Below are positions 3,463 to 26,163 of a DNA stretch of 64,000 bases, one piece after another. Source of the stretch: Altererythrobacter sp. H2 (GTDB lineage: Bacteria; Pseudomonadota; Alphaproteobacteria; Sphingomonadales; Sphingomonadaceae); NCBI RefSeq assembly GCF_035319885.1, contig NZ_CP141285.1, forward strand, positions 2,294,001 to 2,358,000. Direction: 5' to 3'. A program made the translations under genes and the position numbers. The notes beneath the pieces are model-generated. The model was not told the DNA's origin, ran no database searches, and was given only the letters and a program-made list of their open reading frames with translations. The first letter of the stretch is position 1, and each line of letters starts with the position of its first letter.

Positions 3463-3471
3463 ATAGGGTGC

Positions 3472-3641: not shown

Positions 3642-3656
3642 ACTCGCGCTAAGGAT

Positions 3657-4232: not shown

Positions 4233-4447
4233 TGCGTGATCAACCCACCTGGCGCATTCCGGTCGGCCTGCTCGGCCTGCTCGTCGCGCTGACTGCCTAT
4301 GGCCTGATCATCGCACGCTATGTGCCTGAACTGATCGGCACCTGGCCGGGCCTCGCCCAGGCCCCGGTCTATCTGGTGCTGGGCCTGATCTGGCTGCTGC
4401 CCCTGCGCCGCTTCCTGATCTGGATGGAAACCGGCCGCACCCGGTAG
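4232..4447 (+). CDS. DUF2842 family small membrane protein
   Basis: A 71-aa protein with two hydrophobic segments (about residues 9-30 and 42-60) separated by VPELIGTWPGLAQAP, ending in RRFLIWMETGRTR. The two-TM layout and the W-x2-P ending match the DUF2842 family of alphaproteobacterial inner-membrane proteins of unknown function, commonly found after the 5-FTHF cyclo-ligase gene. Its ATG overlaps the preceding stop by one base, so the two genes are translationally coupled. Confidence 0.8.
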   Translation: MRDQPTWRIPVGLLGLLVALTAYGLIIARYVPELIGTWPGLAQAPVYLVLGLIWLLPLRRFLIWMETGRTR

Positions 4448-7644: not shown

Positions 7645-8712
7645 TCAGTCCTTGAGGAGCTTGTCGATGGCCTCGCCGATGCGGATCGGGCCGGGGAAAT
7701 AGGCCCATTCGAGGCTGTGGGGATAGGGCGTGTCGAAGCCGGTGACGCGTTCGACCGGGGCTTCGAGATGGTAGAAACACCGCTCCGTCACCAGCGCGGA
7801 AAGCTCTGCCCCGAAGCCGGACGTGCGGGTCGCCTCGTGCACGATCAGGCAGCGTCCGGTACGTTCGACCGATTGCTCGATCGCTTCGATGTCGAGCGGC
7901 ACCAGCGTCCGCAGGTCAAGAATATGGGCGTCGACGCCCTTGGCCGCGCAGACCGCTTCAGCCACGTGCACCATGGTGCCATAGGCCAGCACGGTCAGCG
8001 CATCGCCTTCGGTTACCGTGCGCGCCTTGCCCAGCGGCACTCGGTAATGCCCTTCCGGCACCACGCTGTCCTTGTGCCGCTTCCACGGCTCGACCGGCTT
8101 GTCATAGTAGCCGGTGAACGGCCCGTTGTAGATCCGCTTGGGTTCGAAGAAGATCACCGGATCGTTGTCCTCGATCGCGGAAATCAGCAGGCCCTTGGCA
8201 TCGTAGGGGTTGGAGGGGATGACCGTCTTGAGACCCGAAACATGGGTGAAGATCGCCTCCGGGCTCTGGCTGTGAGTCTGCCCGCCGAAGATGCCGCCGC
8301 CGAACGGGCTGCGCACGGTCAGGGGGGCAATATAGTCGCAGGCCGAGCGGTAACGCAGCCTGGCCGCTTCGGAAATCAGCTGGTCCAGCCCGGGGTAGAT
8401 ATAGTCGGCGAACTGGATTTCCGGCACCGGGCGCAGGCCATAGGCCCCCATCCCCACCGCCACGCCAATGATCCCGCATTCGGAAATGGGGGTATCGAAC
8501 ACGCGCGTCTTGCCGTGCTTCGCCTGCAATCCGGCCGTGGCGCGGAACACGCCGCCAAAGTAGCCGACATCCTCACCCATGACGACCACATCAGGGTCAC
8601 GCGCGAGCATGATGTCGAGGGCCTCGTTGATTGCCTCGATCATGTTGAGGCGGCGCTCGGCCTCTGCCGGTGCGGCGGTATCCGGCGCCTGGGCTTCGGG
8701 GGCAGTGCTCAC
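7645..8712 (-). CDS. bkdA2: Branched-chain 2-oxoacid dehydrogenase E1 beta subunit
   Basis: A 355-aa beta subunit of the heterotetrameric ThDP-dependent E1. Typical landmarks are NMIEAINEALDIMLARDPDV, VMGEDVGYFGGVFRATAGL with the ThDP-activating Glu, DTPISECGIIGVAVGMGAYG, QFADYIYPGLDQLISEAA and the C-terminal LIVHEATRTSGFGAEL. The start is a GTG (VSTAPEAQ) overlapping the E1alpha stop by 4 bases; longer readings only run antisense or out of frame through E1alpha. The YFGGVFRAT and FFEPKRIYNGP features favour the branched-chain over the pyruvate type. Confidence 0.92.
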   Translation of the reverse strand: MSTAPEAQAPDTAAPAEAERRLNMIEAINEALDIMLARDPDVVVMGEDVGYFGGVFRATAGLQAKHGKTRVFDTPISECGIIGVAVGMGAYGLRPVPEIQFADYIYPGLDQLISEAARLRYRSACDYIAPLTVRSPFGGGIFGGQTHSQSPEAIFTHVSGLKTVIPSNPYDAKGLLISAIEDNDPVIFFEPKRIYNGPFTGYYDKPVEPWKRHKDSVVPEGHYRVPLGKARTVTEGDALTVLAYGTMVHVAEAVCAAKGVDAHILDLRTLVPLDIEAIEQSVERTGRCLIVHEATRTSGFGAELSALVTERCFYHLEAPVERVTGFDTPYPHSLEWAYFPGPIRIGEAIDKLLKD

Positions 8713-10010
8713 GAGTTGGGCCTCCCTTCGGGAAACTTGATCAGCCGTTCGCGGGTCGCCTGCGCGGCCTGTTCCTTGAGGTGCCAGGGCAGTTCCTCGA
8801 ACACGTCCTCGAACATGGTGCGGAAGGGATGGTGCAGCCCGTGGCCGAGGATGCCGTTCTTCTCCGCCTCGCGAGTGGCCTCCTTGACCCGTTCGGCGGC
8901 GGCGAGGTCCATTGCGGCGTGCCGCTCCTCGTCCCATTCGCCCAGCGCGATCAGGTGGTTGCGCAGCCGGGCAATCGGATCGCCCAGCGGCCAGTCGATC
9001 CCTTCCTGCACGCTGCGGTAGGCGCTCGGATCGTCGGAGGTGGAATGGCCCTCGGCACGGTAGGTGAAGTATTCGATCAGGGTCGGCCCGCCATTGGCGC
9101 GGGCGCGGTTGGCGGCCCATTGCTGCGCCGCGAACACCGCCAGCGCGTCGTTGCCGTCCACCCGCAGACCAGCCAGGCCATAGCCGAGCGCGCGGGCGGC
9201 AAACGTTGTCCGCTCCGCCCCGGCAAACCCGCTGAAGCTGCTGATCGCCCACTGGTTGTTGATAACGTTGAGGATAACCGGTGCATTATAGACCGTGGCA
9301 AAGGTGCACGCGCTGTGGAAATCGCCTTCCGCAGTGCTGCCCTCGCCAACCCAGCTTGCGGCAATCCGGCTGTCACCCTTGATCGCGCTGGCCATGGCCC
9401 AACCAACCGCCTGCGGGCACTGCGTGGCCAGGTTGCCGCTGATCGAGAAGAAGCTGTGTTCCCGGCTCGAATACATGATCGGCAGCTGGCGGCCCTTCAG
9501 CTTGTCACCCTTGTTGGAGTAGATCTGGTTGATCATTTCGACCAGCGGATAGCCGCGCGCGATCAGGATGCCCTGCTGGCGGTAGCTGGGGAAGACCATG
9601 TCATCGCTCGCCAGCGCCATCCCGGCGGCGACCGAGGTCGCCTCCTCGCCGGTGCACTTCATGTAGAAGCTGGTCTTGCCCTGGCGCTGCCCGCGGAACA
9701 TCCGTTCGTCGAACGCGCGGACCAGCACCATGTGGCCCAGCATGGTCCGCAGCGTGTCCGGATCGAGCTTCGGGTCCCACGGGCCGTGGGCTTGGTTGTC
9801 ATCGCCAAGCACGCGTACCAAGTCATAGCACAGCGACGCCGTCTCGCTGGCGTGGCAGGCCTCGTCGGGGCGCGGCTGCTGGCCCGCCGCAGGAATGGCG
9901 AGGTGCGAGAAGTCCGCCGCGTCTCCGGGGCGGAAGCGCGGTTCGGGAACGTGGAGCTGCAAGGCGGGCTTGTTGCTTCCCGCCGCACTGCCCTCGGGCC
10001 GCTCGGCCAT
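8709..10010 (-). CDS. bkdA1: Branched-chain 2-oxoacid dehydrogenase E1 alpha subunit
   Basis: A 433-aa alpha subunit that decarboxylates 2-oxo acids (from Val, Leu, Ile) with thiamine diphosphate. It has GEEATSVAAGMAL, PSYRQQGILIARGY (typical of BCKDH E1alpha), the ThDP/Mg motif GEGSTAEGDFHSACTFATVY...NVINNQWAIS, and the phosphorylation-loop equivalent YRAEGHSTSDDPSAYR. It is the first gene of the operon; the 76-base space from thyA holds an inverted repeat that may act as operator or terminator. Confidence 0.93.
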   Translation of the reverse strand: MAERPEGSAAGSNKPALQLHVPEPRFRPGDAADFSHLAIPAAGQQPRPDEACHASETASLCYDLVRVLGDDNQAHGPWDPKLDPDTLRTMLGHMVLVRAFDERMFRGQRQGKTSFYMKCTGEEATSVAAGMALASDDMVFPSYRQQGILIARGYPLVEMINQIYSNKGDKLKGRQLPIMYSSREHSFFSISGNLATQCPQAVGWAMASAIKGDSRIAASWVGEGSTAEGDFHSACTFATVYNAPVILNVINNQWAISSFSGFAGAERTTFAARALGYGLAGLRVDGNDALAVFAAQQWAANRARANGGPTLIEYFTYRAEGHSTSDDPSAYRSVQEGIDWPLGDPIARLRNHLIALGEWDEERHAAMDLAAAERVKEATREAEKNGILGHGLHHPFRTMFEDVFEELPWHLKEQAAQATRERLIKFPEGRPNS

Positions 10011-13650: not shown

Positions 13651-16600
13651 ATGCCCGATATTGCCCGCATCCTTTCGGCCAGGGAGCCGCTGACCCTCGC
13701 TTCGGTGGCGCGCGGGGCGCAGCCGCTGCTGATGGCAGACCTGGCCCGGGCCGCCAAACAGCGCGCGGTGTTCATCGCGCCCGACGAAGCGGCGATGCGC
13801 GCGGTATCCGAAGCGGCGCACTATTTCGCCCCTGAGCTGGAAGTGCTGGAATTCCCGGCATGGGACTGCCTGCCTTATGACCGCGCAAGCCCGGCGCTGA
13901 CCGTGAGTGCGCGGCGTCTCGCCACCCTCTACCGGTTGCAAGCTGGCCGCAAAGGGCCGCAACTTCTGGTGACCACGGTCAACGCGGTGCTGCAGCGCGT
14001 GCTGACCCCGTTCCGGGTGCGCGAGAGCGTGCGCGATTTCCGCCCCGGCACGGAGTTCGGGCGCGAAAGCCTCAGCGCCCTGCTCCAGCGCCAGGGCTAC
14101 AGCCGCACGGATACCGTGGTCGACAAGGGCGAATACGCGGTTCGCGGCTCGATCGTCGACATCTTCCCGTCCGGCCTCGACGAAGGATTGCGGCTCGATT
14201 TCTTCGGAGACGAGCTGGAAAGCCTGCGCAGCTTCGATCCCTCGACCCAGATGAGCACCGGCGTGCTCGGCTCGCACCTGCTCCTGCCAGCCAGCGAAGC
14301 CCTGCTCGACGAAAACAGCATCAAGCGGTTCCGTACCCGCTATCGCGAAAAGTTCGGCGCCGCCGCCACCCAGGACCCGCTGTACGAAGCGGTCAGCGAG
14401 GGGCGCCGGCTCGCCGGGATGGAACACTGGCTGCCGCTGTTCGAAGACCGGATGGTGACATTATTCGACTACTTCGTCGATGATGATGTCATCGTCGTTG
14501 ATAATGCCGCAATCGGTGCGGGCGAGGAACGCCTGGCCGATATCGCCGACTATGCCGAGCAACGCCGCTCTGCCAGCGGGCAGGCGAAGGGCAGTTACCG
14601 GCCGCTTGGCCCCGACGCGCTCTACCTCACGGCCGACGAGTTCTCCGCCAAGCTGGAGTCCGCCCCGGCCCACCGCGCCTCGATCTTCGCCGAACCGGAG
14701 AGCGTGAAGGTTCTCGACTTCGGCTTCGCCTCAGCCCGCGATTTCGCTCCTGAACGCGCCCGTGGTGACAACATCTACGAGGCAGCCGCAGCCCATCTCA
14801 AGGCCGTCACCAGGACGGGCCGCAAGGCCCTGCTGGCAGCTTATTCGACCGGCAGCCGGGCGCGGATCGCCTCGATCCTGGGCGAAGCGGGAGCGCCGAC
14901 ACAGCTGGTCGAAAGCTGGCAGGAAGCCCTGGGCATGGCCGCCAAGGGGCAGCCGGTGGCGATGGTCCTGCCGCTCGAAAGCGGCTTTGCGAGCGACCAG
15001 ATCGAGCTGCTGACCGAGCAGGACCTGCTAGGCGACCGGCTGGTGCGCCGCCGCAAGAAACGCAAGGATTCCGATGCTTTCCTGGCCGAATTGCAGGCGC
15101 TCAACCGGGGCGACCTGGTGGTTCATGTCGAACATGGCATCGGCAAGTACCTGGGCCTTGAACCGATCACCGTCGGCAAGAGCAAGCACGACTGCGTGAT
15201 GCTGGAATACCGGGGCGGCGACAAGCTCTACATCCCGGTCGAGAACATCGACGTCCTCACCCGCTACGGCAGCAGCGAAGAGGCGGTCATGCTCGACCGG
15301 CTCGGCGGGGAAGGCTGGCAGAAACGCCGCGCCAAGCTGAAGGACCGCATTCGCGAGATCGCCGGCGAGCTGCTCGCGGTTGCGGCCCAGCGGGCCTTGC
15401 GCAAGGCCCCGGTGCTCGAACCGGAAGATGCCAGTTTCAACCAGTTCGTCGAGCGTTTCCCGTGGCAGGAAACCGACGACCAGGACCGCGCAATTGCCGA
15501 CGTGCTGGAGGATCTGGCAGCAGGCCGGCCGATGGACCGGCTGGTGTGCGGCGATGTCGGCTTCGGCAAGACAGAAGTCGCGATGCGGGCGGCCTTCGTC
15601 GCGGCGATGAGCGGGCGCCAGGTCGCGGTGGTGGCGCCGACCACCCTGCTCGCGCGCCAGCACTACCAGAACTTCGCGGATCGCTTTGCGCCCTTCCCGC
15701 TCACCGTCGGACGGCTCAGCCGGCTGGTTCCGGCAAAGGAGATGGCGGAAACCCGCGAAGGGCTGGAAAAGGGCTCGGTCGACGTCATCGTCGGGACCCA
15801 CGCGATCCTCTCCAAGACCACCAAGTTCCGCAACCTGGGGCTGGTGATCGTCGACGAGGAGCAGCGCTTCGGGGTCAACCACAAGGAGCGGCTGAAGCAG
15901 TTGCGCGCTGACGTGCATATGCTCACCCTTACCGCCACGCCGATCCCGCGCACCTTGCAGATGGCGATGAGCGGATTGCGCGAACTCTCCACCATCCAGA
16001 CCCCGCCGGTTGATCGCCTCGCCGTCCGCACTTACGTGATGGAGTGGGACGAAATGGTGATGCGCGAGGCCTTGCTGCGCGAACACCATCGCGGCGGGCA
16101 GAGCTTCATCGTGGTGCCCCGCATCTCCGACATGGAAGGCGTGGAAAGCTGGCTGGCCGAACACGTACCCGAAGTGAAGGCGATTGCCGCCCACGGCCAG
16201 ATGGGCGCGACCGAGATCGAAGAGCGGATGAGCGCCTTCTACGAAGGCAAGTACGATGTGCTGCTCTCCACCACGATCGTCGAAAGCGGGCTCGACCTGC
16301 CGAGCGCCAATACGATCATCATCCACCGCGCCGACATCTTCGGCCTGGCCCAGCTTTACCAGCTGCGCGGCCGGGTCGGCCGGGCGAAGCTGCGTGCTTA
16401 TGCCTACCTCACCACCGCGCCTGATAACCAGTTGTCAGAAGTGGCGGAAAAACGCCTGAAAGTGCTCGGTGATCTGGACAGCCTTGGGGCCGGGTTCCAG
16501 CTCGCCAGCCACGATCTCGACATTCGCGGCGCAGGCAACCTGCTGGGCGATGAGCAATCCGGCCATATCCGCGAGGTCGGCTTCGAGCTCTACCAGTCGA

Positions 16601-18919: not shown

Positions 18920-18994
18920 TCCCCGATAGCTCAGCGGTAGAGTAGGTGACTGTTAATCACTTGGTCGTTGGTTCGAATCCAACTCGGGGAGCCA
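18920..18994 (+). tRNA. tRNA-Asn (GTT), integration target
   Basis: A 75-nt cloverleaf: acceptor TCCCCGA with TCGGGGA, D-arm TAGCTCAGCGGTAGAG, anticodon stem GTGAC/ATCAC region with anticodon GTT, T-arm GTTGGTTCGAATCCAAC, discriminator G and CCA. Its last 19 bases are repeated at 26145-26163, marking it as the attachment site of the element downstream. The tRNA itself is left intact. Confidence 0.97.
18976..18994 (+). repeat. attL: left copy of the 19-bp attachment repeat
   Basis: AATCCAACTCGGGGAGCCA, the T-arm/acceptor 3' end of tRNA-Asn, identical to 26145-26163. The sequences diverge immediately on both sides except a GTT three bases to the left. Confidence 0.92.
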
Positions 18995-19133
18995 TACACT
19001 TTTCTTAGAGCTTTGAATTACCTAGCCTTCTGAGGCCGGTCGCTAATTCGCTCCCACATTCTTTACCACATCGCGCTATGAAACTGGTCTTCCATCGCTC
19101 AAGGCCAGTGCCAAAGCTCTATTATGGGTGGGG

Positions 19134-19337
19134 TCAAAGGAGTTCCACAAACAAAGTGATAAACCACCCTGCAAAAAAGAGGCCCCATAGGCCCCAGGCT
19201 AGCGGTTGTCCGTAATTGTCACGCGCGCCCCGTCCTGCCTTCCGAACGTGTAGATTCTCCCAAAGGAAAAGGAGGCAACCGCTCGACAGGGTAAGAGCCA
19301 CGCCGGTTAATATGCCTGTGAACGCGTCGTCTGACAT
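19134..19337 (-). CDS. Small two-TM membrane protein of the element
   Basis: A 67-aa protein with two hydrophobic segments, about residues 8-26 (ILTGVALTLSSGCLLFLW) and 48-66 (AWGLWGLFFAGWFITLFVEL), separated by a basic loop NLHVRKAGRGARDN. It is the last gene of the minus-strand small-gene operon, starting 37 bases after the preceding stop. AGGAGG lies one base before the ATG, closer than ideal. Two-TM small proteins at the end of phage-type operons can be holin-like, but nothing here proves that. Confidence 0.55.
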   Translation of the reverse strand: MSDDAFTGILTGVALTLSSGCLLFLWENLHVRKAGRGARDNYGQPLAWGLWGLFFAGWFITLFVELL

Positions 19338-19374
19338 GCCTCCTGCCTAACGTGCTATTTTGTCAGATAGAAGC

Positions 19375-19554
19375 CTATTTGAGACCGACCAGCCGGATAA
19401 GCAACGGCTCTGCATCGCTAGGGCCGTAGCGCGACCGCCATGCAGCAAGCTCCGCCTCCACATCGGTTTCAGGCGTTACAAGCAGGACAGGTCGCAACGT
19501 GGGCGGCTGGCTTACCGTTTCCAGCTTTTGAAGTCTGGTAGCTATTCTAGACAT
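19375..19554 (-). CDS. Small element protein, L-x2-LE family (paralogue of the upstream gene)
   Basis: A 59-aa protein, MSRIATRLQKLETVSQPP at the start and EAELAAWRSRYGP near residue 34. The start overlaps the preceding stop by 8 bases. Both blocks resemble those of the next gene upstream (RRLEALETR and EAEATAAYEAEHGP), so the pair look like diverged tandem duplicates. The N-terminal helix is of the coiled-coil kind often seen in small phage proteins. Function unknown. Confidence 0.6.
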   Translation of the reverse strand: MSRIATRLQKLETVSQPPTLRPVLLVTPETDVEAELAAWRSRYGPSDAEPLLIRLVGLK

Positions 19555-19747
19555 GACAACCCGGCTTTCGGATAATCACACGCAGGATGGAATTGCTCTC
19601 ACCGATAGGGCCATGCTCTGCCTCATAGGCTGCCGTGGCCTCCGCCTCGCTCTCGCCTTCGTGCTGGATAATGCGCACCCACGGAACGAACCCGCCGAGC
19701 GTTCGCGTTTCCAAGGCTTCCAGCCTCCGCTTTATTGCTGCAACCAT
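19547..19747 (-). CDS. Small element protein, L-x2-LE family
   Basis: A 66-aa protein starting MVAAIKRRLEALETRTLGG with an acidic middle (EGESEAEATAAYEAEHGP) and a basic end. It overlaps the upstream gene by 16 bases and the downstream one by 8. It is similar to the 59-aa product that follows and shares the opening helix pattern with the 65-aa product before it. No known family recognised. Confidence 0.6.
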   Translation of the reverse strand: MVAAIKRRLEALETRTLGGFVPWVRIIQHEGESEAEATAAYEAEHGPIGESNSILRVIIRKPGCHV

Positions 19748-19929
19748 TCTCGAACCTCCTTTGAAAAGCCGCTTAGATCGCCATCAAATTCGGGCGGGCT
19801 TTCATTATCGACCCGCTCTTGTTCTTCGCCCGTCAACTGAATGCCGAGCCACTGCTTTGCCCAAGGTGACAGGGAGCTTTCACGCCTTGCCCCCTCCAGT
19901 GCGGACAGCCTTCGATTAAGTGCACTCAT
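19732..19929 (-). CDS. Small element protein with N-terminal coiled-coil helix
   Basis: A 65-aa protein, MSALNRRLSALEGARRES at the start, then an acidic C-terminal half (GEEQERVDNESPPEFDGDLS) ending in VREWLQQ. Its ATG overlaps the stop of the DUF5681-type gene (ATGA). The opening M-x3-L/I-x-RRL-x-ALE pattern recurs in the following small genes. Function unknown. Confidence 0.6.
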   Translation of the reverse strand: MSALNRRLSALEGARRESSLSPWAKQWLGIQLTGEEQERVDNESPPEFDGDLSGFSKEVREWLQQ

Positions 19930-20357
19930 TGTTTTGCCTCCAGTGCGGCCAATCGGGTTTCGAGGTCGCAGGTTTCCACCAGCTGCTTGTGCGAAGTCAG
20001 CAGCGACATGACCCGCCCCCCTTCATCGGGAGTAACCTCACCAGCCGCCACAGCAGCCAGCAGGGCGGACGAGGCAGTTACCGCATCCTCAATGGAGCGA
20101 ATTGCAGGCAGGGCGAACGTGACCGGCGAGTCTTTCCTAGCCGGGGCGATGCGATCCAAGCACAGGCGAATAGCGGCAGTGTCACCTTCCAGCGCCTTGT
20201 CGATTGCTGCACGCGTCAACGCTTCGTGCTCACCTTCCAGCAGCGCCTCAATTGCTACCGTTGTCTTGTTACGCGAGCCGGGGGTGCGGCCCCCAAGCGA
20301 ATTGCCCGGAGCAAAGGTGCCATCCGTTTTTCTGCCGTTATCTTTCGGTTCAGCCAT
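19926..20357 (-). CDS. DUF5681-type protein (phage or island associated)
   Basis: A 143-aa protein. The N-terminal 45 residues (GTFAPGNSLGGRTPGSRNKTT) match the basic Gly-rich signature G-x-F-x-P-G-N-x2-G-R-x2-GSRNK of DUF5681 proteins, which sit in prophages and genomic islands, often beside packaging genes. The rest is helical (AAIDKALEGDTAAIRLCLDRI and a C-terminal LETRLAALEAKQ). It overlaps the flanking genes by 1 and 4 bases. A small-terminase-like or DNA-binding role is a guess from context. Confidence 0.7.
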   Translation of the reverse strand: MAEPKDNGRKTDGTFAPGNSLGGRTPGSRNKTTVAIEALLEGEHEALTRAAIDKALEGDTAAIRLCLDRIAPARKDSPVTFALPAIRSIEDAVTASSALLAAVAAGEVTPDEGGRVMSLLTSHKQLVETCDLETRLAALEAKQ

Positions 20358-20455
20358 CAGCGCGCCCCTGCCGGATTAGGGCGCTTAACGCCCACCGCCA
20401 GCACCAGGAGAGCGAACAGCGTAAGCACGCCGATTGCGGCTAGAATCTCGATCAT
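20357..20455 (-). CDS. 32-aa single-TM element protein
   Basis: A tiny frame, MIEILAAIGVLTLFALLVLA followed by a short basic tail, so one membrane helix with a cytosolic C-terminal tail. Its ATG shares a base with the preceding stop (TGATG) and its stop shares a base with the DUF5681-type start, which argues that it is translated. Function unknown. Confidence 0.5.
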   Translation of the reverse strand: MIEILAAIGVLTLFALLVLAVGVKRPNPAGAR

Positions 20456-20553
20456 CACAGCCACCCCGAGAAAGCGCGGTTAAGCGAACGGTTGAGACGC
20501 ACCGCGCCTATCGCCAGAGCGCCAGCAAGAAGAGTGAGGACGAGGCGGGTCAT
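20455..20553 (-). CDS. 32-aa small hydrophobic element protein
   Basis: MTRLVLTLLAGALAIGAVRL then a basic tail with two Arg-containing turns. It has one hydrophobic segment. It is the first of seven small minus-strand genes (20553 to 19134), six of them overlapping, and its stop overlaps the next start. It could be a small membrane peptide; no family recognised. Confidence 0.45.
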   Translation of the reverse strand: MTRLVLTLLAGALAIGAVRLNRSLNRAFSGWL

Positions 20554-20591
20554 ACGCTTGCCTCATTCCTGCCTTGTGCTAATGCCGCCCT

Positions 20592-21176
20592 ATGTTGGCT
20601 ATTTACGGCGCAGGCGGCTACGCCTTGCAGATGCTCGATACGGTCGAGACCCTGCTCGCAAACGGGCGCCAGGCCTGTTTTGTCAGCGACAACGGCCCCG
20701 ATGAACTTTGCGGCGTTCCGGTTCTCCGTCCTGCCGCAGTCCCCGAGGGTGCAAGTTATTGCATCGCCATTGCCGGTAGCGACACCCGCAAGCGCATTGC
20801 CAGCGGCCTGCCTCGCTTCTCCACTCTTGTTTCCCCCACAGCGATTATCTCCGATCATGCGACAATCGGTGAAGGAAGCATTATTGCGCACAACACCATC
20901 ATCGAGGCGAAGGCGCGCATCGGCAGGCACTTCCACGCCAATATCTATTCCTACGTCGCCCACGAATGCACCATCGGAGATTTCGTGACATTTGCCCCCC
21001 GCGTGAACTGCAACGGGAATGTCACCATTGGCGATGGTGTTTACATCGGGACAGGCGCGATGATTAAACAGGGCGTAACCATTGGAGAGGGCGCAGTAAT
21101 TGGCATGGGCGCAGTCGTCACGAAGGACGTTCCTGCTGGCGAAACATGGGTCGGCAACCCAGCCAAGGCTCGCTAA
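20592..21176 (+). CDS. PglD/NeuD-type sugar O- or N-acetyltransferase
   Basis: A 194-aa left-handed beta-helix acyltransferase. The N-terminal Rossmann-like part begins MLAIYGAGGYALQMLDTVE and binds a nucleotide sugar; from about residue 80 hexapeptide repeats run as TAIISDHATIGEGSIIAHNT, AHECTIGDF, VTIGDGVYIGTGAMIKQGV, ending GMGAVVTKDVPAGETWVGNP. The His in YVAHECTIG fits the catalytic His of PglD. It is the only plus-strand gene inside the element, set between two minus-strand operons and 6 bases from the stop of the convergent one. Such placement is typical of a cargo gene; modification of surface polysaccharide, and thus of phage receptors, is a reasonable inference. Confidence 0.85.
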   Translation: MLAIYGAGGYALQMLDTVETLLANGRQACFVSDNGPDELCGVPVLRPAAVPEGASYCIAIAGSDTRKRIASGLPRFSTLVSPTAIISDHATIGEGSIIAHNTIIEAKARIGRHFHANIYSYVAHECTIGDFVTFAPRVNCNGNVTIGDGVYIGTGAMIKQGVTIGEGAVIGMGAVVTKDVPAGETWVGNPAKAR

Positions 21177-21181
21177 CTCCA

Positions 21182-21388
21182 TCATGCCCACTTGTTGAAC
21201 ACGATACGATTGCCAGACGATGCCGTAGTGGGCGGCGCGGTTGTAAGTGTAACCGTTGTTCCCGAGAGTGCTGAAATGTCCGACCAATGCGCTTCGCCGC
21301 TATCCAGCCAGACCCCGGCCCCATACGTGCGCCGGGCGGCACCGCTTGGGAGTTCGTCTTGTCCTGTGTGTTTCATGTTCCCCGCCAT
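21182..21388 (-). CDS. Small element protein, Thr/Ser-rich
   Basis: A 68-aa protein, start MAGNMKHTGQDELPSGAARR, then a beta-type stretch SGTTVTLTTAPPTTASSGNR ending IVFNKWA. The composition recalls small phage tail or head-decoration proteins, but no family is recognised. It starts 6 bases after the 96-aa gene and converges with the acetyltransferase gene. Confidence 0.5.
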   Translation of the reverse strand: MAGNMKHTGQDELPSGAARRTYGAGVWLDSGEAHWSDISALSGTTVTLTTAPPTTASSGNRIVFNKWA

Positions 21389-21394
21389 CGTCTC

Positions 21395-21685
21395 TTAGTG
21401 GACCGCTGGAGCATAGCCCGTAGGCGCTCGCCTGAGATCGTCCGCGAGATAGGCAGCCAGTGCCGACCAGCCTTGCGGATGATCCAGAAGTGAAAGCATG
21501 TTGTCCGGAATGAGGGTGAGGCTGTCCCACACCTTCCCCTGATCTTCGCCAAGCTCGCCAGCCACATCGGCAGCAAGAGCCTGTGCCGATACAAAGCGCG
21601 CAAGTTCCGCCAGCCGCTCGCACTGAGCAACCGGGGGATGCGCCGCATTTGAAGGGGCAAAGGCTTGAGCGTCAGGCTGGTGCAC
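21395..21685 (-). CDS. Element protein of unknown function, 96 aa
   Basis: A 96-aa protein starting at GTG, sharing one base with the preceding TAG. It is helical and acidic (LAELARFVSAQALAADVAGE, LLDHPQGWSALAAYLADDLR). No recognisable family. It is the second gene of a three-gene unit led by the ribbon-helix-helix-like regulator, so the three are probably co-regulated. Confidence 0.55.
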   Translation of the reverse strand: MHQPDAQAFAPSNAAHPPVAQCERLAELARFVSAQALAADVAGELGEDQGKVWDSLTLIPDNMLSLLDHPQGWSALAAYLADDLRRAPTGYAPAVH

Positions 21686-21819
21686 TACTGCAACCCAACC
21701 TTCTCACGCACCATCGAACGGAGATATTCGGATACGGAGCAGCCTGCCCGTTGAGCACGAAGGGCCAGCGCCGCCTCAATGGACGGGCTGGCCCGGAATG
21801 AAATTCGCGAAGCCTGCAT
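21685..21819 (-). CDS. Ribbon-helix-helix-like small regulator (44 aa)
   Basis: A 44-aa product: a short beta strand ASRISFRASP, helix SIEAALALRAQRAG, turn CSVSEYL, helix RSMVREKVGLQ. This strand-helix-helix order and the SVSEYLR turn fit the Arc/CopG (ribbon-helix-helix) fold. GGGGAGAGGGA precedes the ATG. A palindromic operator overlapping TTGACA lies about 90 bases upstream, consistent with self-repression. Its stop overlaps the next gene's GTG. Confidence 0.65.
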   Translation of the reverse strand: MQASRISFRASPSIEAALALRAQRAGCSVSEYLRSMVREKVGLQ

Positions 21820-22133
21820 TCCCTCTCCCCTTCTGTCATCGCGACGATGGGCGCACGCTCAATAATTCATCGAAGTGCAGGGGTTCGCCTAGCACATTTT
21901 GCCGTGTCTGTCAAGTGACTGACAGGCTTCCACGAATCATTAGTTCCCGTATTGTTCTGCCGATGAGTTCCAAGCGTCTAGAAACCCTAGCAGACTATGC
22001 CACCCCCGCAGGGATCGCGGGGCGCAAAAAGGGCCAAATATTTTGAGCAATGTTTGTGGCGCGGTTTCTTGTTATCTTTCGGTCACTTAAATAGCTGGTG
22101 TTTCCACAATGGTAAGTAGACCGTGTATGTAGT
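21820..22133. other. Non-coding region between the regulator unit and the polymerase-like gene
   Basis: This 314-base stretch holds the operator/-35 described at 21908-21925 and an inverted repeat CCCCGC/GCGGGG (22004-22009 and 22017-22022) with a 7-base loop, about 180 bases past the ATG-proximal promoter and downstream of the polymerase-like gene on the minus strand. No T-run follows the hairpin on the minus strand. It is otherwise AT-rich with no convincing gene; an origin of replication would be possible here but no iterons are evident. Confidence 0.5.
21908..21925. promoter_or_regulatory. Palindromic operator with overlapping -35 element
   Basis: CTGTCA and TGACAG form perfect 6-base arms around AGTGAC. 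On the minus strand the left arm provides TTGACA (21914-21909), a consensus -35 facing the ribbon-helix-helix-like gene; a matching -10 is weak (TAGGCG at 17 bases). Probably the autoregulated promoter of the three-gene unit. Confidence 0.55.
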
Positions 22134-23291
22134 CTATCCTTGCAACTCCACTATTGGACCACTCAGACCATAATCGAGGGCCGTTTCGGCCATAATATCC
22201 TCTAGATTCTGCGCGTGGCAATTTTTGGCGATAAATCCGTCATGCATCGAGAGGGCGAGGAACCCCTGCCTCAACGCTTTGAGCATTACGCGCTCAGCCA
22301 TTTGGCTTTCGATGTGCTGGAGGCGCAGGCCCACACCAGAATGAAAGGCCTTTGCAATCGGGCGGTGCGCGTCCTTAATGTCGTCGATCAGCTGATTGGC
22401 TTGTTTCTTGGCCTCAATATCGGGCAGGCCCATCGCCTTCATTGCATCGCAGTTGACGATTGCACCTAGAGCCTTGCGCTTGGTTAAGGCGTTCAGAAGT
22501 ATCAACATTGCCCGCTTCACCAACTGACGAGGCCACGCGCCTATGTCGTAGCAATCGGAAGGAGGAACCGCCCCTATCTCAGCGTAGAGAATGCGAGGGT
22601 GTAGATTTTTGTAATCCGCCTCGCTGGTGGCCTCACCGTCCATTGTGAGATCCCTACGCAATGCCCGTGGCACGTTCTGATAGGACGACCCTTGGCAGAA
22701 CAGCCGTCCCCCCATCCCCATGCAGTGCTTGAACATTCGACACATTGGCGCGGTCATCAACGGGCCTAGTCCAATCCTCAAATCAGCCGATGCCTGCCCC
22801 TCATTCAATTCCGCCATGCGCTTAATCATCCGAGAGATTGCCCGCGTGTTCGGTAACCGCTGCGGAGTGCCGTTTGCATCCCGCAAGATGACCCCCGGAG
22901 AAGGGCGCACCAGCCGAAGTAGAGGACTATCACCGAGCAGATTTCCCACTAGGTCAACAAGAGCAGGCTTTGCAGTGAGCGTGCTTTGCCAGCCTCGTCG
23001 ACCTGGAGTAGGAACAAAAGACTCGCACAAATCACTTTGCGCCCTGAAATAATCAGCAGCGCTGGCAACTCCGCGATATGAAAACGCATGGTGGGCGGTC
23101 CAATGCCCCATGTGGCGACTGTAGGATAGACTGCGGCCTAGGGCCTTAGCCTCAACCATACCGAGGGCCATATGTGCGCCGGTATCGCAGCACCCAAGAG
23201 CGCCCCGTAGTTCCTCGCCAACCTCGCCCAGCTCGTATTTTCGCGCCAGTGGAATGTCTCGTATTGTGTCGTCATCGTGGCCCCCGCCCAT
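22134..23291 (-). CDS. Compact family-A-polymerase-like protein of the element
   Basis: A 385-aa protein. The C-terminal half reads like a reduced Pol I polymerase domain: GRLFCQGSSYQNVP at 195-208 (compare GRLsSs.PNLQNIP), motif A SEADYKNLHPRILYAEIG with D226 (compare DYSQIELRILA), a helix RQLVKRAMLILLNA with R255 and K259 spaced four apart as in the Pol I O-helix, and motif C LSMHDGFIAK with H350-D351 (compare VHDE). There is no 3'-5' exonuclease signature; the N-terminal 190 residues are unassigned, with a basic HTH-free region TRAISRMIKRMAELNE. It is the last gene of a tightly packed operon. Likely a replication protein; activity is inferred only. Confidence 0.6.
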   Translation of the reverse strand: MGGGHDDDTIRDIPLARKYELGEVGEELRGALGCCDTGAHMALGMVEAKALGRSLSYSRHMGHWTAHHAFSYRGVASAADYFRAQSDLCESFVPTPGRRGWQSTLTAKPALVDLVGNLLGDSPLLRLVRPSPGVILRDANGTPQRLPNTRAISRMIKRMAELNEGQASADLRIGLGPLMTAPMCRMFKHCMGMGGRLFCQGSSYQNVPRALRRDLTMDGEATSEADYKNLHPRILYAEIGAVPPSDCYDIGAWPRQLVKRAMLILLNALTKRKALGAIVNCDAMKAMGLPDIEAKKQANQLIDDIKDAHRPIAKAFHSGVGLRLQHIESQMAERVMLKALRQGFLALSMHDGFIAKNCHAQNLEDIMAETALDYGLSGPIVELQG

Positions 23292-23295
23292 ACCC

Positions 23296-23484
23296 CTAGA
23301 CCCCCTTAGTCAGGTCGATCTTTCGACGACCGAGGACTAGGCGCAGACCACCCATCGCGCCGCGTGCATCACGTATGTCCGAGAAGCGTTGTTCTGGTGC
23401 GTGAATGCCGCCCGGTTCAGGAGGAACAAGCCTCACGACATATTCCGCCCCTTCCTGCGATAGTATCACCTCGCCCCGATCCAT
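23296..23484 (-). CDS. Small element protein, 62 aa
   Basis: MDRGEVILSQEGAEYVVRLV begins a beta-rich N-terminal half, then RFSDIRDARGAMGGLRLVLG and a basic end KIDLTKGV. It shares one base with the preceding stop and ends 4 bases before the polymerase-like gene, so it belongs to the same operon. No family recognised. Confidence 0.55.
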   Translation of the reverse strand: MDRGEVILSQEGAEYVVRLVPPEPGGIHAPEQRFSDIRDARGAMGGLRLVLGRRKIDLTKGV

Positions 23485-23840
23485 TACGCCACCTCGCCTT
23501 CTGGCGGGGGAACGATGCTAAACGCGGTCACATCGCAGCCCATACGCCCCGGACGCTTGCCGACCTCATACAGCAGCTTTCTGGTGCGAAGCTCACCGCA
23601 TCGAGGACGGACAACGTGAACCGGCAAGTCCAGATCGTTTGCCACCTCTTCCGGGATAGCACCGGCAGCGCCGTAGGTCGCAAATGCCTCCACGACTTGC
23701 CTGTGACGACGCGGAAGCGTCTGTGTGACCTCAGAGGCCGCAGCCTCGCTATTCGCCTTGGCAGTGGGCGTATTGCCCTTGGAGCCAGCAGCAGTCCCGC
23801 GCCCGTAGTGGTTGCCGTTCTCGTTCTCAGCCTTCGACAT
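23484..23840 (-). CDS. Winged-helix element protein
   Basis: A 118-aa protein. The first 40 residues are disordered (Asn/Gly/Ala/Thr-rich). From residue 45: LPRRHRQVVEAFATYGAAGA, IPEEVANDLDLPVHVVRPRC, GELRTRKLLYEVGKRPGRMG then CDVTAFSI. Helix-helix-recognition helix (VVRPRCGELR) and a wing around GKRPGRMG fit a wHTH that senses or binds DNA, as in small phage replication regulators. The ATG at 23840 was chosen because the longer frame is antisense-like. It overlaps the preceding gene by 14 bases. Confidence 0.6.
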   Translation of the reverse strand: MSKAENENGNHYGRGTAAGSKGNTPTAKANSEAAASEVTQTLPRRHRQVVEAFATYGAAGAIPEEVANDLDLPVHVVRPRCGELRTRKLLYEVGKRPGRMGCDVTAFSIVPPPEGEVA

Positions 23841-24036
23841 AATCAAACCCCGCGAATTGTTCAGACATTCCCCCTTTGTCGGCCAGCTTTCCCAGCCAGC
23901 TCCATTGCTTGGGGGTGAGTGGGTAGTGGTCAGGGGCGCAGAGCTGCCCGAGGAATTGCCCGCTCTTGCGGGTGATCCCTTCACCGTTCTGAAGTAGCGC
24001 CAGAGCCAGCGCCCGCAGCTTCGCCCGCTCATCCAT
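23827..24036 (-). CDS. Small element protein, 69 aa
   Basis: A helical protein: DERAKLRALALALLQNGEG, then GQFLGQL and PLTPKQWSWLGKLADKGGM. The block P-L-x-x-K-Q-x-x-W-L-x-x-L resembles small phage and island proteins that sit beside replication genes, but I cannot name it. The ATG at 24036 has GGAGGG 9 bases upstream; a TTG five codons earlier is less likely. It overlaps both neighbours. Confidence 0.55.
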   Translation of the reverse strand: MDERAKLRALALALLQNGEGITRKSGQFLGQLCAPDHYPLTPKQWSWLGKLADKGGMSEQFAGFDYVEG

Positions 24037-24226
24037 TGCCGCGCCCTCCAAACTTGGAGAGAGAGTTGCGCTTGCGCTTCTCGACTTCCCATTGAGAGGC
24101 AGCCGCCATCAATGCGATAGCCCAGCGGCGCGTAGGCTCTAATCTGTCTGGTGTGGCGCAGTCAGGCAGACCGCACAGCAATTTCTCAACGCCCGGATTA
24201 CGAGCGGAAAGCACAACTCTGTTCAT
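24029..24226 (-). CDS. Small basic element protein, 65 aa
   Basis: First gene of the replication-type operon. The sequence MNRVVLSARNPGVEKLLCGL then a helix RRWAIALMAAASQWEVEKRK and a Gly/Arg-rich tail. GGAAGGA lies 7 bases before the ATG, a good ribosome site. The product's end overlaps the next start by 8 bases. No family recognised. Confidence 0.55.
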   Translation of the reverse strand: MNRVVLSARNPGVEKLLCGLPDCATPDRLEPTRRWAIALMAAASQWEVEKRKRNSLSKFGGRGNG

Positions 24227-24285
24227 GAAACGTTCCTTCCGTCACTTTTCGATGCGAGGAAGCGAACAGAACGAACCCAACTAGG

Positions 24286-24314
24286 TTGACGTAAACGTAA
24301 ACCTGTTCTATAAG
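24286..24314 (+). promoter_or_regulatory. Near-consensus sigma70 promoter facing the plus strand
   Basis: TTGACG (24286-24291), a 17-base spacer, then TATAAG (24309-24314). No protein gene lies downstream on this strand, only a 66-base stretch ending in a terminator. A tandem TAAACG TAAAC repeat in the spacer could be an activator or repressor site. Confidence 0.6.
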
Positions 24315-24320
24315 GATCGA

Positions 24321-24390
24321 ATGGAAACCGTTTGCTACCACGCAGACACTTAGACCCCTTCCCTTGCTCAGAGGGTTGGGGTCTTTTCTT
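24321..24390 (+). ncRNA. Candidate small RNA of the element
   Basis: About 70 nt would be made from the promoter at 24286-24314 to a Rho-independent terminator at 24352-24390. The terminator has outer stem AGACCCC/GGGGTCT, inner CCCT/AGGG around TGCTCAG, then TTTTCTT, and it works only in this direction. The RNA lies between an AlpA-like gene and the replication-type operon, antisense to the operon's leader. In P4-like satellites a small immunity RNA sits in a comparable place. This is a prediction from sequence alone. Confidence 0.45.
24352..24390 (+). terminator. Rho-independent terminator of the candidate small RNA
   Basis: Outer stem AGACCCC (24352-24358) with GGGGTCT (24378-24384), inner stem CCCT/AGGG, loop TGCTCAG, then a T-rich run TTTTCTT on the plus strand. 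There is no T-run on the minus-strand side. Confidence 0.7.
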
Positions 24391-24397
24391 TGAGGCT

Positions 24398-24625
24398 TCA
24401 CGCAGCCTCCACTACCGGCAGGCTGTTGCGCCACGCCATCTCATCCTCCAGCTTGATCCGAGTTGCGCGCCCAACCTTTGTGAAGCGCAAGAGACCTTCC
24501 CGATGGGCGGTGTAAACGTAGCTGCGGGACACATCGTTATCAGCGCAAAAGGAAGCGATGGACTTCATCCCGCCCATAAAGTTCGCGCCCTGCGAAGATT
24601 CCGTTTGCGTTGTAGATTTTGACAT
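24398..24625 (-). CDS. AlpA/excisionase-like HTH protein
   Basis: A 75-aa protein. After a 17-residue polar leader, GMKSIASFCADNDVSRSYVYTAHREGLL shows the MerR/AlpA-type turn (S-R-S-x-V-Y) and RFTKVGRATRIKLEDEMAWRN is the usual K-x-G-R-x-x-R-I wing and following helix. Such proteins act as transcription activators of integrase genes or as recombination directionality factors. It sits between the replication-type operon and the integrase, a typical island arrangement. Confidence 0.75.
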   Translation of the reverse strand: MSKSTTQTESSQGANFMGGMKSIASFCADNDVSRSYVYTAHREGLLRFTKVGRATRIKLEDEMAWRNSLPVVEAA

Positions 24626-24695
24626 GATAGGCTTTCCCCGAAGGACGTGTTGTGAAGCTCATCCATACACGGTGAAGCACAAAAAGCGAACATCG

Positions 24696-24784
24696 CTGGG
24701 GCAGTAATCCCCAGTCCCTTCGTGGTTGGTCGCAAATTAGGCACGGCCTAGCGCACTGACCCTATCTTTGTTTTTGCAAATCAG
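24696..24784. repeat. Inverted and direct repeats upstream of the AlpA-like gene
   Basis: CTGGGG/CCCCAG (24696-24701, 24709-24714) form a hairpin or operator. Further on, GCAAATTAG (24732-24740) and GCAAATCAG (24776-24784) are near-identical direct repeats in an AT-rich stretch just past the integrase stop. They could be arm-type sites for integrase or the AlpA-like protein; function untested. Confidence 0.4.
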
Positions 24785-24812
24785 CGTGGCCGACGACTCC
24801 GGGCGTCCTGTG

Positions 24813-26000
24813 CTATCCGAGAGACCGCAAGGAAAGCGGAAGCTGGACCACATCGCCAGACGTTCCGGCAGCATACCTGCCCCACGCATCGAGCAGGGTT
24901 CTCCGCATCTCTAGAAACTTGGCCCTGTTGTAGGCACGCACAACCTTGTCCGGGATCTTGTGTGCCAATGCCGCCTCAGCGACAGCCTCAGGGATCGAGG
25001 GCATACGTTCCGCCGCCCATGTCCGGAATGTAGAGCGGAAGCCGTGCACCACGTAAGGCAGCGCGGCCATTTCTTTGCCAATCGTCATATCGGATAGACG
25101 CTTGCCGCCCTTGCCGGGAAACACATGGCAGTCCGCCTCGATGGTCCGCCACCGCTTTGCCCGTTCCAGTATCACCACCGCTTCCGGTGACAGCGTAATG
25201 GTGTGGGCCTCGCCGTTCTTGCGCATCATAGAAGCCGGTCGCCGCCATTCGCCAGCTTCAAGGTCAATCTGTGACCACATCGCGTCTCTAACCTCCCCAT
25301 TACGGGCAGCAGTCAGGATCGTGAACAGCAGGGCCAACCGCCCTATCGTTTCCGTCTTGGCCTCCAGCTTCGCGATAAATGCGGGCAATTCCTCATAGGG
25401 CATGGAAGAGAAGTTGCCGCCCTCCTGTTGCTTCGACAGCAGCGCCGAGAGGCTTTGACGCGGAGCGCCCTCATTGCGCCACCCGCTTGCCTTCGAGTAA
25501 TCGAGTATCAGGCCGATCCGGTGCCGTAGCTTCTTCGCCAGCGCAGGCTTGCTATGCCATACAGGCGACAGCGCAGCCGCAACATCGCGCTCCGTAATGC
25601 TATCCACCCTCAGCTTGCCAATCTTGGGGTGCACGTGGGCCGAGAGGGATGACAGGAACGCGGCAGCAGTCTTATCGGACCAGCCTGGAGCCTTCGCGTC
25701 ATGGCAGGCCTGTGCGGCATCCTTGAACGAGGGCGGCGCGTTACTATCCCTGTCACGCTCTGCAATCGGGTCACGCCTTTGCTTAGCAGTCTTGCGCAAC
25801 TCGCGGGCGCGGTCCCGAGCTTCCGCCAGACCGTAAGCCGCCAGCGATCCTAGGCCAATGTCCTTGCGCTTGCCATCGACTTGCACCCGGAGAACCCACG
25901 ACTTCGCCCCTTTGGACGAGACGAGCAGGTTCAGGCCATCGCCATCGCTATGCCTTCCCGGCTTCGCATTCTCGACTTGTTTGTTTGTCAGTTTGCCCAC
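24813..26000 (-). CDS. Site-specific tyrosine integrase (DUF4102/IntS type)
   Basis: A ~395-aa recombinase that would insert and excise the element at tRNA-Asn. The N-terminal arm-binding domain has GRHSDGDGLNLLVSSKGAKS (DUF4102), then a core-binding domain, and the catalytic domain with R in TAARNGEVR, K nearby, HGFRSTFRTWA (H-x-x-R), LAHKI (H), and the Tyr nucleophile in VVRAYNRAKF. The gene starts at a GTG near 26000 (VGKLTNKQV); another GTG at 26018 is possible. The 5' end is about 145 bases from attR and the gene points into the element. Confidence 0.93.
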   Translation of the reverse strand: MGKLTNKQVENAKPGRHSDGDGLNLLVSSKGAKSWVLRVQVDGKRKDIGLGSLAAYGLAEARDRARELRKTAKQRRDPIAERDRDSNAPPSFKDAAQACHDAKAPGWSDKTAAAFLSSLSAHVHPKIGKLRVDSITERDVAAALSPVWHSKPALAKKLRHRIGLILDYSKASGWRNEGAPRQSLSALLSKQQEGGNFSSMPYEELPAFIAKLEAKTETIGRLALLFTILTAARNGEVRDAMWSQIDLEAGEWRRPASMMRKNGEAHTITLSPEAVVILERAKRWRTIEADCHVFPGKGGKRLSDMTIGKEMAALPYVVHGFRSTFRTWAAERMPSIPEAVAEAALAHKIPDKVVRAYNRAKFLEMRRTLLDAWGRYAAGTSGDVVQLPLSLRSLG

Positions 26001-26144
26001 GGGCCAGCGCTCCCACACTTCTTACCACACTATGCGCTGGATAGAGGAACGCGTCAATGCGCGCCCAAATACAAACTCCCCCCCTAAGCCCCTAGGATTC
26101 AGGGACTTCCAAAATGCCGAGAATCACCCAAACACAAGAGTTGC

Positions 26145-26163
26145 AATCCAACTCGGGGAGCCA
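26145..26163 (+). repeat. attR: right copy of the 19-bp attachment repeat
   Basis: AATCCAACTCGGGGAGCCA, identical to the 3' end of tRNA-Asn at 18976-18994. No other part of a tRNA is present, so it is the recombination scar rather than a second tRNA. The next 20 bases lead into a terminator hairpin that was probably downstream of tRNA-Asn before integration. Confidence 0.92.

Follow-up and report, generated by a model that had tools for sequence, protein, structure and literature searches.

A family of polymerases named divPolA2 is already known from phages, barbaviruses among them, where it was described in 2024 (Yutin et al., 2024, Virol J 21:200, PMC11348598). As characterized in the main text of that paper, its members have an intact palm, lack the thumb and the exonuclease, and carry an N-terminal domain without known relative, which is unrelated to those of RNA polymerases; their genes lie in variable neighborhoods and occur in extra copies, and their role, in repair or as RNA polymerase, is left open there. 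TV-Pols are minimal A-superfamily polymerases on mobile elements, several of them alphaproteobacterial, which are predicted to act as primase and polymerase, and some of which have an extra N-terminal domain (predicted to be all-helical) and lambda-type integrase or resolvase neighbors (Iyer, Abhiman and Aravind, 2008, Biol Direct 3:39, PMC2579912). The CcPol-MP primase of SCCmec is an A-family enzyme on a mobile element that primes with its partner MP and dNTPs (Bebel et al., 2020, PMC7581432; Rice, 2023, PMC10061031). Here, a stretch of 64,000 nucleotides from Altererythrobacter sp. H2 (assembly GCF_035319885.1, contig NZ_CP141285.1, positions 2,294,001 to 2,358,000; hereafter the window) was analyzed, in which a small element integrated in tRNA-Asn (the island) encodes a 385-amino-acid (aa) protein of the divPolA2 family. 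New here are the replaced residues of the sugar pocket, the tentative assignment of the N-terminal domain to the winged-helix fold and the occurrence on small integrase-bearing elements, which make the function of the family testable, including the question, left open in the naming paper, of whether the product is DNA or RNA.

The gene is an open reading frame (ORF) that runs uninterrupted on the minus strand from 23291 to 22134; on the plus strand the same frame is broken by stops. The preliminary description of this DNA had recognized the ORF, leaving out its strand, and had read the product as a compact PolA-like polymerase from the motifs GRLF-x5-YQNVP, D226 in ADYKNLHPRIL, R255/K259 and H350-D351. 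The ORF proved real and all these motifs were found, save that motif C is HDG and not HDE; the translation also gives the claimed spacing of 125 residues from D226 to D351. The match to PHROG 4756 (function not assigned; E = 1.7e-44) and the conservation of the catalytic residues in a 134-row alignment put the likeness to Pol I motifs beyond chance, and a fortuitous motif match was rejected on this conservation and on the predicted fold. The polymerase interpretation is supported, and we consider it very likely that the 385-aa protein is an A-type (A-superfamily) polymerase.

Its place in divPolA2 is seen from the exemplar AUR84708, which matches the family profile A5 with E = 2.3e-36 and the 385-aa protein itself by BLASTP with E = 8e-9 (23% over 202 columns). 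Profile A5 was built from the 385-aa protein and 90 of 91 members (the second copy in locus L125 being left out) and does not contain the exemplar. The island protein and divPolA2 share the intact palm, motifs A, B and C, the lack of a recognized thumb or exonuclease, an N-terminal globular domain and fold matches to both DNA and RNA polymerases, but divPolA2 was described in phages, whereas the gene here lies on an integrated bacterial island beside an integrase and its N-terminal domain is assigned, on a modest match, to the winged helix. In the main text of the naming paper (PMC11348598) the words ‘integrase’, ‘satellite’ and ‘mobile element’ do not occur, and TV-Pol appears once, in the background. 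Our literature search found the name divPolA2 only in that paper and its preprint, nothing under the name ‘PHROG 4756’, no activity test of the family and, among the titles listed, no study of this island type. Against Pfam, the 385-aa protein has no match at E up to 1, and no exonuclease domain is recognized in it, in agreement with the preliminary description. Phmmer and profile A5 gave no convincing sequence relative in the PDB, and NCBIfam and PADLOC searches yielded no usable family for the polymerase. Membership of bacterial Pol I itself was rejected on the missing Pfam match and the changed gate residues.

AlphaFold2 modeling with 91 sequences (pLDDT 89.8, pTM 0.83) predicts a polymerase of the PolA/T7-RNA-polymerase superfamily at about residues 131–385, with both palm and fingers present. 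Its secondary structure and the motif register suggest that D226, K259 and D351 are co-localized. The 50 Foldseek matches listed against the PDB are A-family DNA polymerases (best E = 1.2e-6). Alignment of the Foldseek candidates by VIA-align gave Z values of 13.4–15.2 among the matches listed, which comprise mitochondrial and T7 RNA polymerases and PolA DNA polymerases. The top match listed was mitochondrial RNA polymerase (Z 15.2, 241 residues aligned, rmsd 3.6), and the values for apicoplast PolA, KlenTaq, T7 RNA polymerase and T7 DNA polymerase were 14.4, 14.3, 14.2 and 13.9, respectively. As values less than 1 apart are tied, the fold does not choose between a DNA and an RNA polymerase, and a decision on this ground was rejected.

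Residues 1–130 modeled alone (pLDDT 84.8) fold on their own, and the order of elements in the predicted model, helices, two strands as a wing and a helix, agrees with a winged helix. The structure matches listed are mostly winged-helix regulators (best VIA-align Z 7.2 over 88 residues, where Z below 8 may, by VIA-align's own warning, mean merely a common arrangement), and Foldseek gave no match at E up to 0.001 (best 0.044). The N-terminal half, which had been left unassigned, is on this modest match probably a winged helix, which should bind DNA. In the predicted model, only one helix (150–167) lies between the winged helix and a hairpin of strands 183–188 and 194–199, and a thumb homologous to those of other polymerases appears to be absent. 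The protein may be described as a minimal A-superfamily polymerase in which a predicted winged helix stands where other members have thumb and exonuclease parts.

The catalytic set is kept throughout the family. In a non-redundant alignment of 134 rows, which includes the 385-aa protein and whose denominators are the rows with a residue at the column, D226 is found in 133/133, D351 in 130/130, K259 in 129/132 and R255 in 128/132; conservation of the first three was a test named in the preliminary description. R196 (131/133), E224 (129/134) and H350 (125/130) are also conserved, as is D246, the presumed fingers Asp (86/90). Three rows, from genomes of about 1.4 Mb (L039, L041 and L042), have Cys for the O-helix Lys K259 and have lost other conserved residues; these relatives are possibly inactive.

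The sugar pocket is replaced. In Pol I, E710 blocks incoming ribonucleotides and forms a gate with F762, and Y766 helps to form the nucleotide site (PMC9324360). The equivalents in the 385-aa protein are H231, L263 and N267; the family has His in 113/133 rows at the first position, Leu in 81/131 (Asn in 25 and Met in 9) at the second, and Asn in 121/132 at the third. Ten reference DNA polymerases (six bacterial PolA and those of T7, SP6, phiKMV and Syn5) have Glu at the motif A Asp+5, Phe or Tyr at the O-helix Lys+4 and Tyr at Lys+8, and five phage RNA polymerases (T7, SP6, phiKMV, Syn5 and KASIA) have Gly, Met and Tyr at the same positions; thus the gate is Glu in 10/10 of the former and Gly in 5/5 of the latter, and the Tyr at the Y766 position is common to both sets (10/10 and 5/5). 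The protein is PolA-like, as had been proposed, but this does not here make it DNA-polymerase-like, since it lacks the Pol I gate residues. Part of the relatives in A5 were obtained by scans seeded with GRFYG and HDS peptides, and the conservation of these two motifs is therefore biased; D226, E224, H231, R255, K259 and N267 were not seeded. Among 38 rows found without peptide seeding, 22 have the His/Asn pair and 35 both catalytic Asp, the remaining three having no second column.

A further feature bears on chain initiation. Chain-starting enzymes of the superfamily are argued to be marked by a shortened last thumb helix (Bebel et al., 2020, PMC7581432; Rice, 2023, PMC10061031); this helix spans residues 684–692 in Escherichia coli Pol I and 151–156 in CcPol (PMC7581432). 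The helix after QNVP, taken as its counterpart, comprises residues 209–212 in the predicted model. Template Arg and catalytic Asp are 28 residues apart in 91/130 rows, 30 in the 385-aa protein and 37 in 6/6 bacterial PolA (it was readable for these six, not for the four phage DNA polymerases). The short predicted helix and the short spacing would fit chain initiation, without being proof of it. CcPol-MP, as described in these sources, shares with the island protein the A-family core, the lack of active exonucleases, the mobile element and the shortened last thumb helix, and primer synthesis has been shown for CcPol-MP; it differs in that CcPol keeps the E710/F762 equivalents, where the island protein has His231 and Leu263, needs the partner MP and has a helicase. 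By sequence, neither a CcPol-like partner (single-strand-binding protein) nor a helicase was recognized among the scanned island ORFs; for finding such partners, structure prediction is described as far more powerful than sequence comparison (PMC10061031).

The polymerase gene lies on a small integrative element of 7.17 kb, measured from repeat start to repeat start (Table 1). A tyrosine integrase, a repeat of the tRNA 3′-end at both ends and an empty site in a relative were all found. The joined flanks of the element align to a congener (G033) without break, 87% over 271 of 272 bp, so that the insertion site is empty there, and to a second genome (G004) with 74% over query bases 25–272; among 25 genomes, the own one included, these two clearly span the junction, and the rest align in pieces, for the most part over the tRNA, or not at all. 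About 7 kb with G+C lower than in the surroundings (19 to 26 kb) follow tRNA-Asn. The integrase matches Arm-DNA-bind_3 (2.6e-20), Phage_int_M (3.5e-20) and Phage_integrase (1.3e-9). No helicase, primase, capsid or terminase was recognized by Pfam in the 17 island ORFs scanned, polymerase and integrase included. The preliminary description had called the element satellite-type: a small integrated element with tRNA-end repeats is indeed present, but a phage satellite is only possible, no capsid or packaging gene being recognized among the scanned ORFs and a helper phage not having been sought. The short helix-turn-helix (HTH) protein between integrase and polymerase may be AlpA-like. Three short minus-strand ORFs at 19375–19929 have similar starts (RLxxLE pattern) and no Pfam match, and are perhaps a small paralogous set.

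Table 1. Features of the polymerase and of the island in tRNA-Asn (positions in the window; row counts from the 134-row alignment).
Feature	Position	Strand	Basis
Winged-helix (probable) and PolA-superfamily polymerase, PHROG 4756/divPolA2 family, 385 aa	22134..23291	-	Sequence, AlphaFold2, profile matches
N-terminal probable winged-helix domain, residues 20-126	22914..23234	-	AlphaFold2 of residues 1-130
Polymerase core, residues 131-385	22137..22901	-	VIA-align
Motif A catalytic Asp226	22614..22616	-	D in 133/133 rows with a residue
His231, position of Pol I gate Glu710	22599..22601	-	H in 113/133 rows
O-helix Arg255-x3-Lys259	22515..22529	-	R in 128/132, K in 129/132 rows
Asn267, position of Pol I Tyr766	22491..22493	-	N in 121/132 rows
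Motif C His350-Asp351	22239..22244	-	H in 125/130, D in 130/130 rows
Integrated element in 3′ end of tRNA-Asn	18976..26163	.	19-bp repeats, lower G+C, empty site in congener
tRNA-Asn (gtt), target gene	18920..18994	+	ARAGORN
att repeat, tRNA-side copy (last 19 bases of tRNA)	18976..18994	+	19-bp exact repeat
att repeat, distal copy	26145..26163	+	19-bp exact repeat
Tyrosine integrase, P4-like domain layout, distal end of element	24813..26018	-	Pfam
Short HTH protein, excisionase-like (weak)	24398..24625	-	HTH_17 E = 0.0042, below Pfam cut-off
ORF upstream of polymerase; residues 108-181 match PHROG 1123 (function not assigned), E = 1e-9	23484..24092	-	
62-aa ORF, same strand, ends just ahead of polymerase start	23296..23484	-	ORF list
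44-aa ribbon-helix-helix protein	21685..21819	-	PF21983 NikA-like 1.4e-7
Hexapeptide acetyltransferase, probable cargo	20592..21176	+	Hexapep 1.5e-19, PglD_N 1.8e-5
DUF5681 protein (weak, just over cut-off)	19926..20357	-	PF18932 3.8e-6

The partnership with an integrase recurs among relatives. Named genomes yielded 349 candidate stretches, of which 307 were confirmed; the counts for genome loci refer to the best 80 of these 307. The preliminary description had thought similar unnamed proteins possible on other alphaproteobacterial islands: relatives are found in other alphaproteobacteria, and about half of the 80 loci are near an integrase, but the family is not unnamed, being published as divPolA2. 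In 39/80 loci a tyrosine integrase lies within 5 kb, and PF00589 matches 38 of these integrases; a serine recombinase lies within that distance in 4 loci, and either in 40. In the 36 loci with full flanks, integrases number 12, 15, 5 and 1 per successive 2.5-kb bin away from the polymerase, the last bin lying mostly outside the loci, which reach about 8 kb to either side. The nearest relative of the island integrase among these neighbors (37.6% over 391 aa) is 88 bp from the polymerase of its locus (L139). Flanking repeats of at least 18 bp across the integrase–polymerase span were found in 8/34 testable loci against 0/34 in a reversed control, and at 16 bp in 11 against 0. ARAGORN found a tRNA gene in 9 of 10 loci examined (not in L148); in 8 of these 9 loci (L094 excepted) it overlaps the repeat. 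Five loci (L140, L111, L137, L118 and L094) have a tRNA-Gln(ttg) inside the element or close to it, four of them at the repeat, and this tRNA is a recurrent target among Rhodobacterales relatives. Elements in nine loci measure 4,982 to 8,875 bp. As cargo, Pfam recognized among others a caspase-like protein, Sel1 repeats, an M10 protease, TerB and DUF4062; among ten ORFs of seven other elements, part of whose ORFs were scanned, it showed no replication family. In L118, two near-identical short ORFs on opposite strands (9605–9850 and 14593–14814) flank the integrase, which suggests a repeat inside the element. In viral loci, an integrase lies within 5 kb in 6/41 by profile; an earlier count of 7/41 was dropped, a single-linkage cluster having drawn in an unrelated 874-aa ORF of L158.

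The smallest unit was found on the contig IMGVR_UViG_3300037296_000253 (L165 1–11069 and L202), which has three identical polymerase genes. The unit repeated there measures 3,347 bp and is bounded on either side by a perfect 24-bp repeat; its three copies are identical over 3,371 bp including the closing repeat. A 215-aa integrase (PF00589, 6e-37) and a 422-aa polymerase are its sole recognized genes. Between copies 1 and 2 lies a repeat-bounded stretch of 1,288 bp, with a 296-aa ORF lacking a Pfam match. The identical copies may come from recent accretion at an att site or be an assembly effect.

The island polymerases fit the description of TV-Pols given by Iyer, Abhiman and Aravind (2008); no sequence link to a named TV-Pol was obtained. 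The beta-hairpin with a conserved Arg (here R196), the two catalytic Asp, the presumed fingers Asp and RxxxK are all present in the island protein, and the integrase or resolvase neighborhood of a TV-Pol subset is seen in the island and in 40/80 genome loci; the D5-like helicase linkage of another subset is lacking, no helicase being recognized by Pfam in the 17 island ORFs. The TV-Pol thumb consists of two antiparallel helices; in the model of the island protein only helix 150–167 lies ahead of the hairpin and behind the winged helix. The TV-Pol N-terminal domain is predicted to be all-helical, whereas the model here has strands and a wing. Ma-LMM01, a named TV-Pol carrier, gave no match to A5, its TV-Pol gene not having been pinpointed.

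From these observations we infer a replication role of which each biochemical step is conditional. The integrase would excise the island from tRNA-Asn as a circle, the winged helix would bind the island origin or orient the template strand, the polymerase core would make a short primer there, probably tolerating ribonucleotides, and host enzymes would extend this primer. On this reading, the protein is an origin-binding primase or initiator polymerase that starts island replication; we favor it tentatively, and give the mechanism as a whole somewhat less than an even chance. The predicted fold, the conservation, the sugar pocket, the RNA-polymerase-like positions of the family, the profile scores on trimmed columns (given below), the last thumb helix with the Arg-to-Asp spacing, the integrase context with its flanking repeats, the lack of any other recognized replication family in the ORFs scanned and the precedent of CcPol-MP count in its favor. 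In the small natural elements no other replication gene was recognized. Should the protein prime by itself, it would be a primase of neither the DnaG nor the archaeo-eukaryotic type, and simpler than CcPol-MP.

Several points weigh against this reading. No activity is known for the family, and no origin has been identified in the island. The precedent of CcPol-MP is not close, because CcPol needs a partner and keeps the E710/F762 equivalents. The winged helix is matched modestly, with Z not above 7.2 and nothing from Foldseek at E up to 0.001. The His/Asn gate is less uniform in the unseeded rows (22/38), common but not universal, and at two positions where its family has RNA-polymerase-like letters the 385-aa protein does not (GRLF for GRxY, HDG for HDS). 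The match to the RNA polymerase profile spans only 42–44 columns around motif C, against 130 for that to the DNA polymerase profile. Half of the genome loci have no integrase within 5 kb, the 80 loci are related to one another and many of their contigs are short, and only 6/41 viral contigs have an integrase within that distance. Finally, phage carriers have replication genes of their own: Shewanella phage KASIA also encodes DNA polymerase I, primase, helicase and RNA polymerase, and Barba19A DNA polymerase and primase. These coexisting genes and the variable neighborhoods in phages fit an accessory role.

Extension of the primase reading to the whole family is more doubtful: divPolA2 would be a class of origin-binding primases, each uniting in one small chain a winged helix and an A-superfamily core with a ribonucleotide-accepting His/Asn pocket, and an integrase together with such a protein would make the smallest replicating integrative elements (3.35 kb, L165). 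If this were true, the sugar choice of divPolA2 proteins would be intermediate between those of DNA polymerase I and of T7-type RNA polymerases.

Rather unlikely, but first among the alternatives, is a primer-dependent DNA polymerase without proofreading, which would serve in gap filling or second-strand synthesis at island entry or exit. Motif A matches Pol I without gap (DY..[IL].xR), the Foldseek matches listed are all DNA polymerases, and repair is one option offered by the divPolA2 authors in their main text (PMC11348598). In untrimmed hhalign comparisons, whose P-values are for single comparisons, the family scored highest with DNA polymerases (44.6, P = 9.5e-5, 130 columns, versus 36.1, P = 0.0022, 42 columns around motif C, with RNA polymerases), the DNA and RNA polymerase sets scoring 17.9 with each other. 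With trimmed columns, the scores were 32.5 with DNA and 35.9 with RNA polymerases, and 20 column shuffles reached at most 21.1 and 23.2; another comparison gave 29.0 with 24 bacterial PolA, 35.3 with T7 added and 26.6 with two RNA polymerases. DNA polymerase I (PF00476) shares with the island protein palm and fingers, the template Arg, the two catalytic Asp, the O-helix RxxxK and the Gln at the Q849 position. However, its Pfam profile is matched neither by the 385-aa protein at E up to 1 nor by any of the 91 members at 0.1, being absent from the 21 Pfam families matched; no exonuclease domain is recognized here; and both gate residues (E710 and F762) and Tyr766 are changed, the gate Glu, the K+4 aromatic residue and the K+8 Tyr being replaced by H, L and N.

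It is distinctly improbable that the protein is a very small RNA polymerase of the single-subunit kind, which would transcribe the genes of the element and read their promoters with its winged helix. Such a role is an option raised in the main text of the naming paper (PMC11348598), and the top VIA-align match listed is mitochondrial RNA polymerase, its Z of 15.2 tied with those of DNA polymerases. Of all Pfam profiles, PF00940 (T7-like and mitochondrial single-subunit RNA polymerases) is matched most often by the 91 members (3/91, best E = 0.0013), the 385-aa protein not being among the three. The same profile run on 190 genomes of the class yielded no relative, but neither did it pick up any control, so that this says nothing about absence. 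The family also has letters like those of RNA polymerases, in which R-x-Y, an Asp behind the Q/H helix position and HDS occur. Two residues past the template Arg stands Tyr in 119/134 (Phe in the 385-aa protein), three past the Q849/H784 position Asp or Glu in 127/130, and next to HD Ser in 121/130 (a count biased by seeding; Gly in the 385-aa protein). Against this, the Gly gate in D-x-[ST]-C-S-G of motif A is lacking, H231 standing in its place, and Asn (N267) replaces the K+8 Tyr that the five compared RNA polymerases keep. These five phage enzymes have 779–883 aa against a core of about 255 aa here, the divPolA2 N-terminal domain is described as unrelated to those of RNA polymerases (PMC11348598), and KASIA already encodes an RNA polymerase.

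That the gene is a polymerase-based accessory cargo, such as an anti-phage or competition system, and not a replication gene, seems very unlikely. Variable neighborhoods and extra copies in phages, as reported in the main text of PMC11348598, and matches in two places in some phage records would agree with it, and a review of CcPol raises defense as an alternative for that enzyme; the recurrent pairing with an integrase, even as the sole two recognized genes, and the lack of a PADLOC match for the 385-aa protein argue against it. A decayed remnant is the least probable reading of all, for although the protein is short for its family, has a long tree branch (1.94) and lies on an island with G+C lower than its surroundings, the ORF is uninterrupted with a complete catalytic set and is sister to L161 with support 99, in a tree made by a quick method with many long branches.

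The family is spread widely. By tblastn at E up to 0.01 it is found in 238 phage records, all below 60% identity, in 118 of which one place covers at least 80% of the query; by name, Rheinheimera (115) and Vibrio (97) account for most of the 238. Three plasmid records also match by tblastn. In the host's family, 14/298 genomes have it (tblastn), and in its class 32/385 (PHROG profile), own genome included in both. On viral contigs, 28/39 and 20/56 candidates were confirmed in two overlapping sets. The labels of relatives include Rhodobacterales, SAR116, Nitrosomonas, Desulfovibrio, a Cyclobacteriaceae and a Clostridia bin, several of them being bins whose labels may be wrong. Scans with peptide patterns from the 385-aa protein alone gave 15 stretches in genome contigs, none confirmed, and no pattern match in viral contigs. 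Besides A5, alignments were made of the 385-aa protein with 36 of 45 first matches (A1) and of the window segment with 84 of 86 computed rows (A6). The occurrence of divPolA2 both in phages and on bacterial islands with an integrase suggests exchange between the two.

Three arrangements in phages and viral contigs may be added. In KASIA (L046 11629–12978), the family gene sits between an AAA ATPase and a terminase. The polymerase keeps the same neighbors in five phage contigs (L068–L072), where a 499-aa ORF two genes upstream looks like a UvsW-type helicase. On one viral contig (L054), two family members (3087–4394 and 7810–8832) flank an ORF that looks like a cytosine methylase, close to an integrase.

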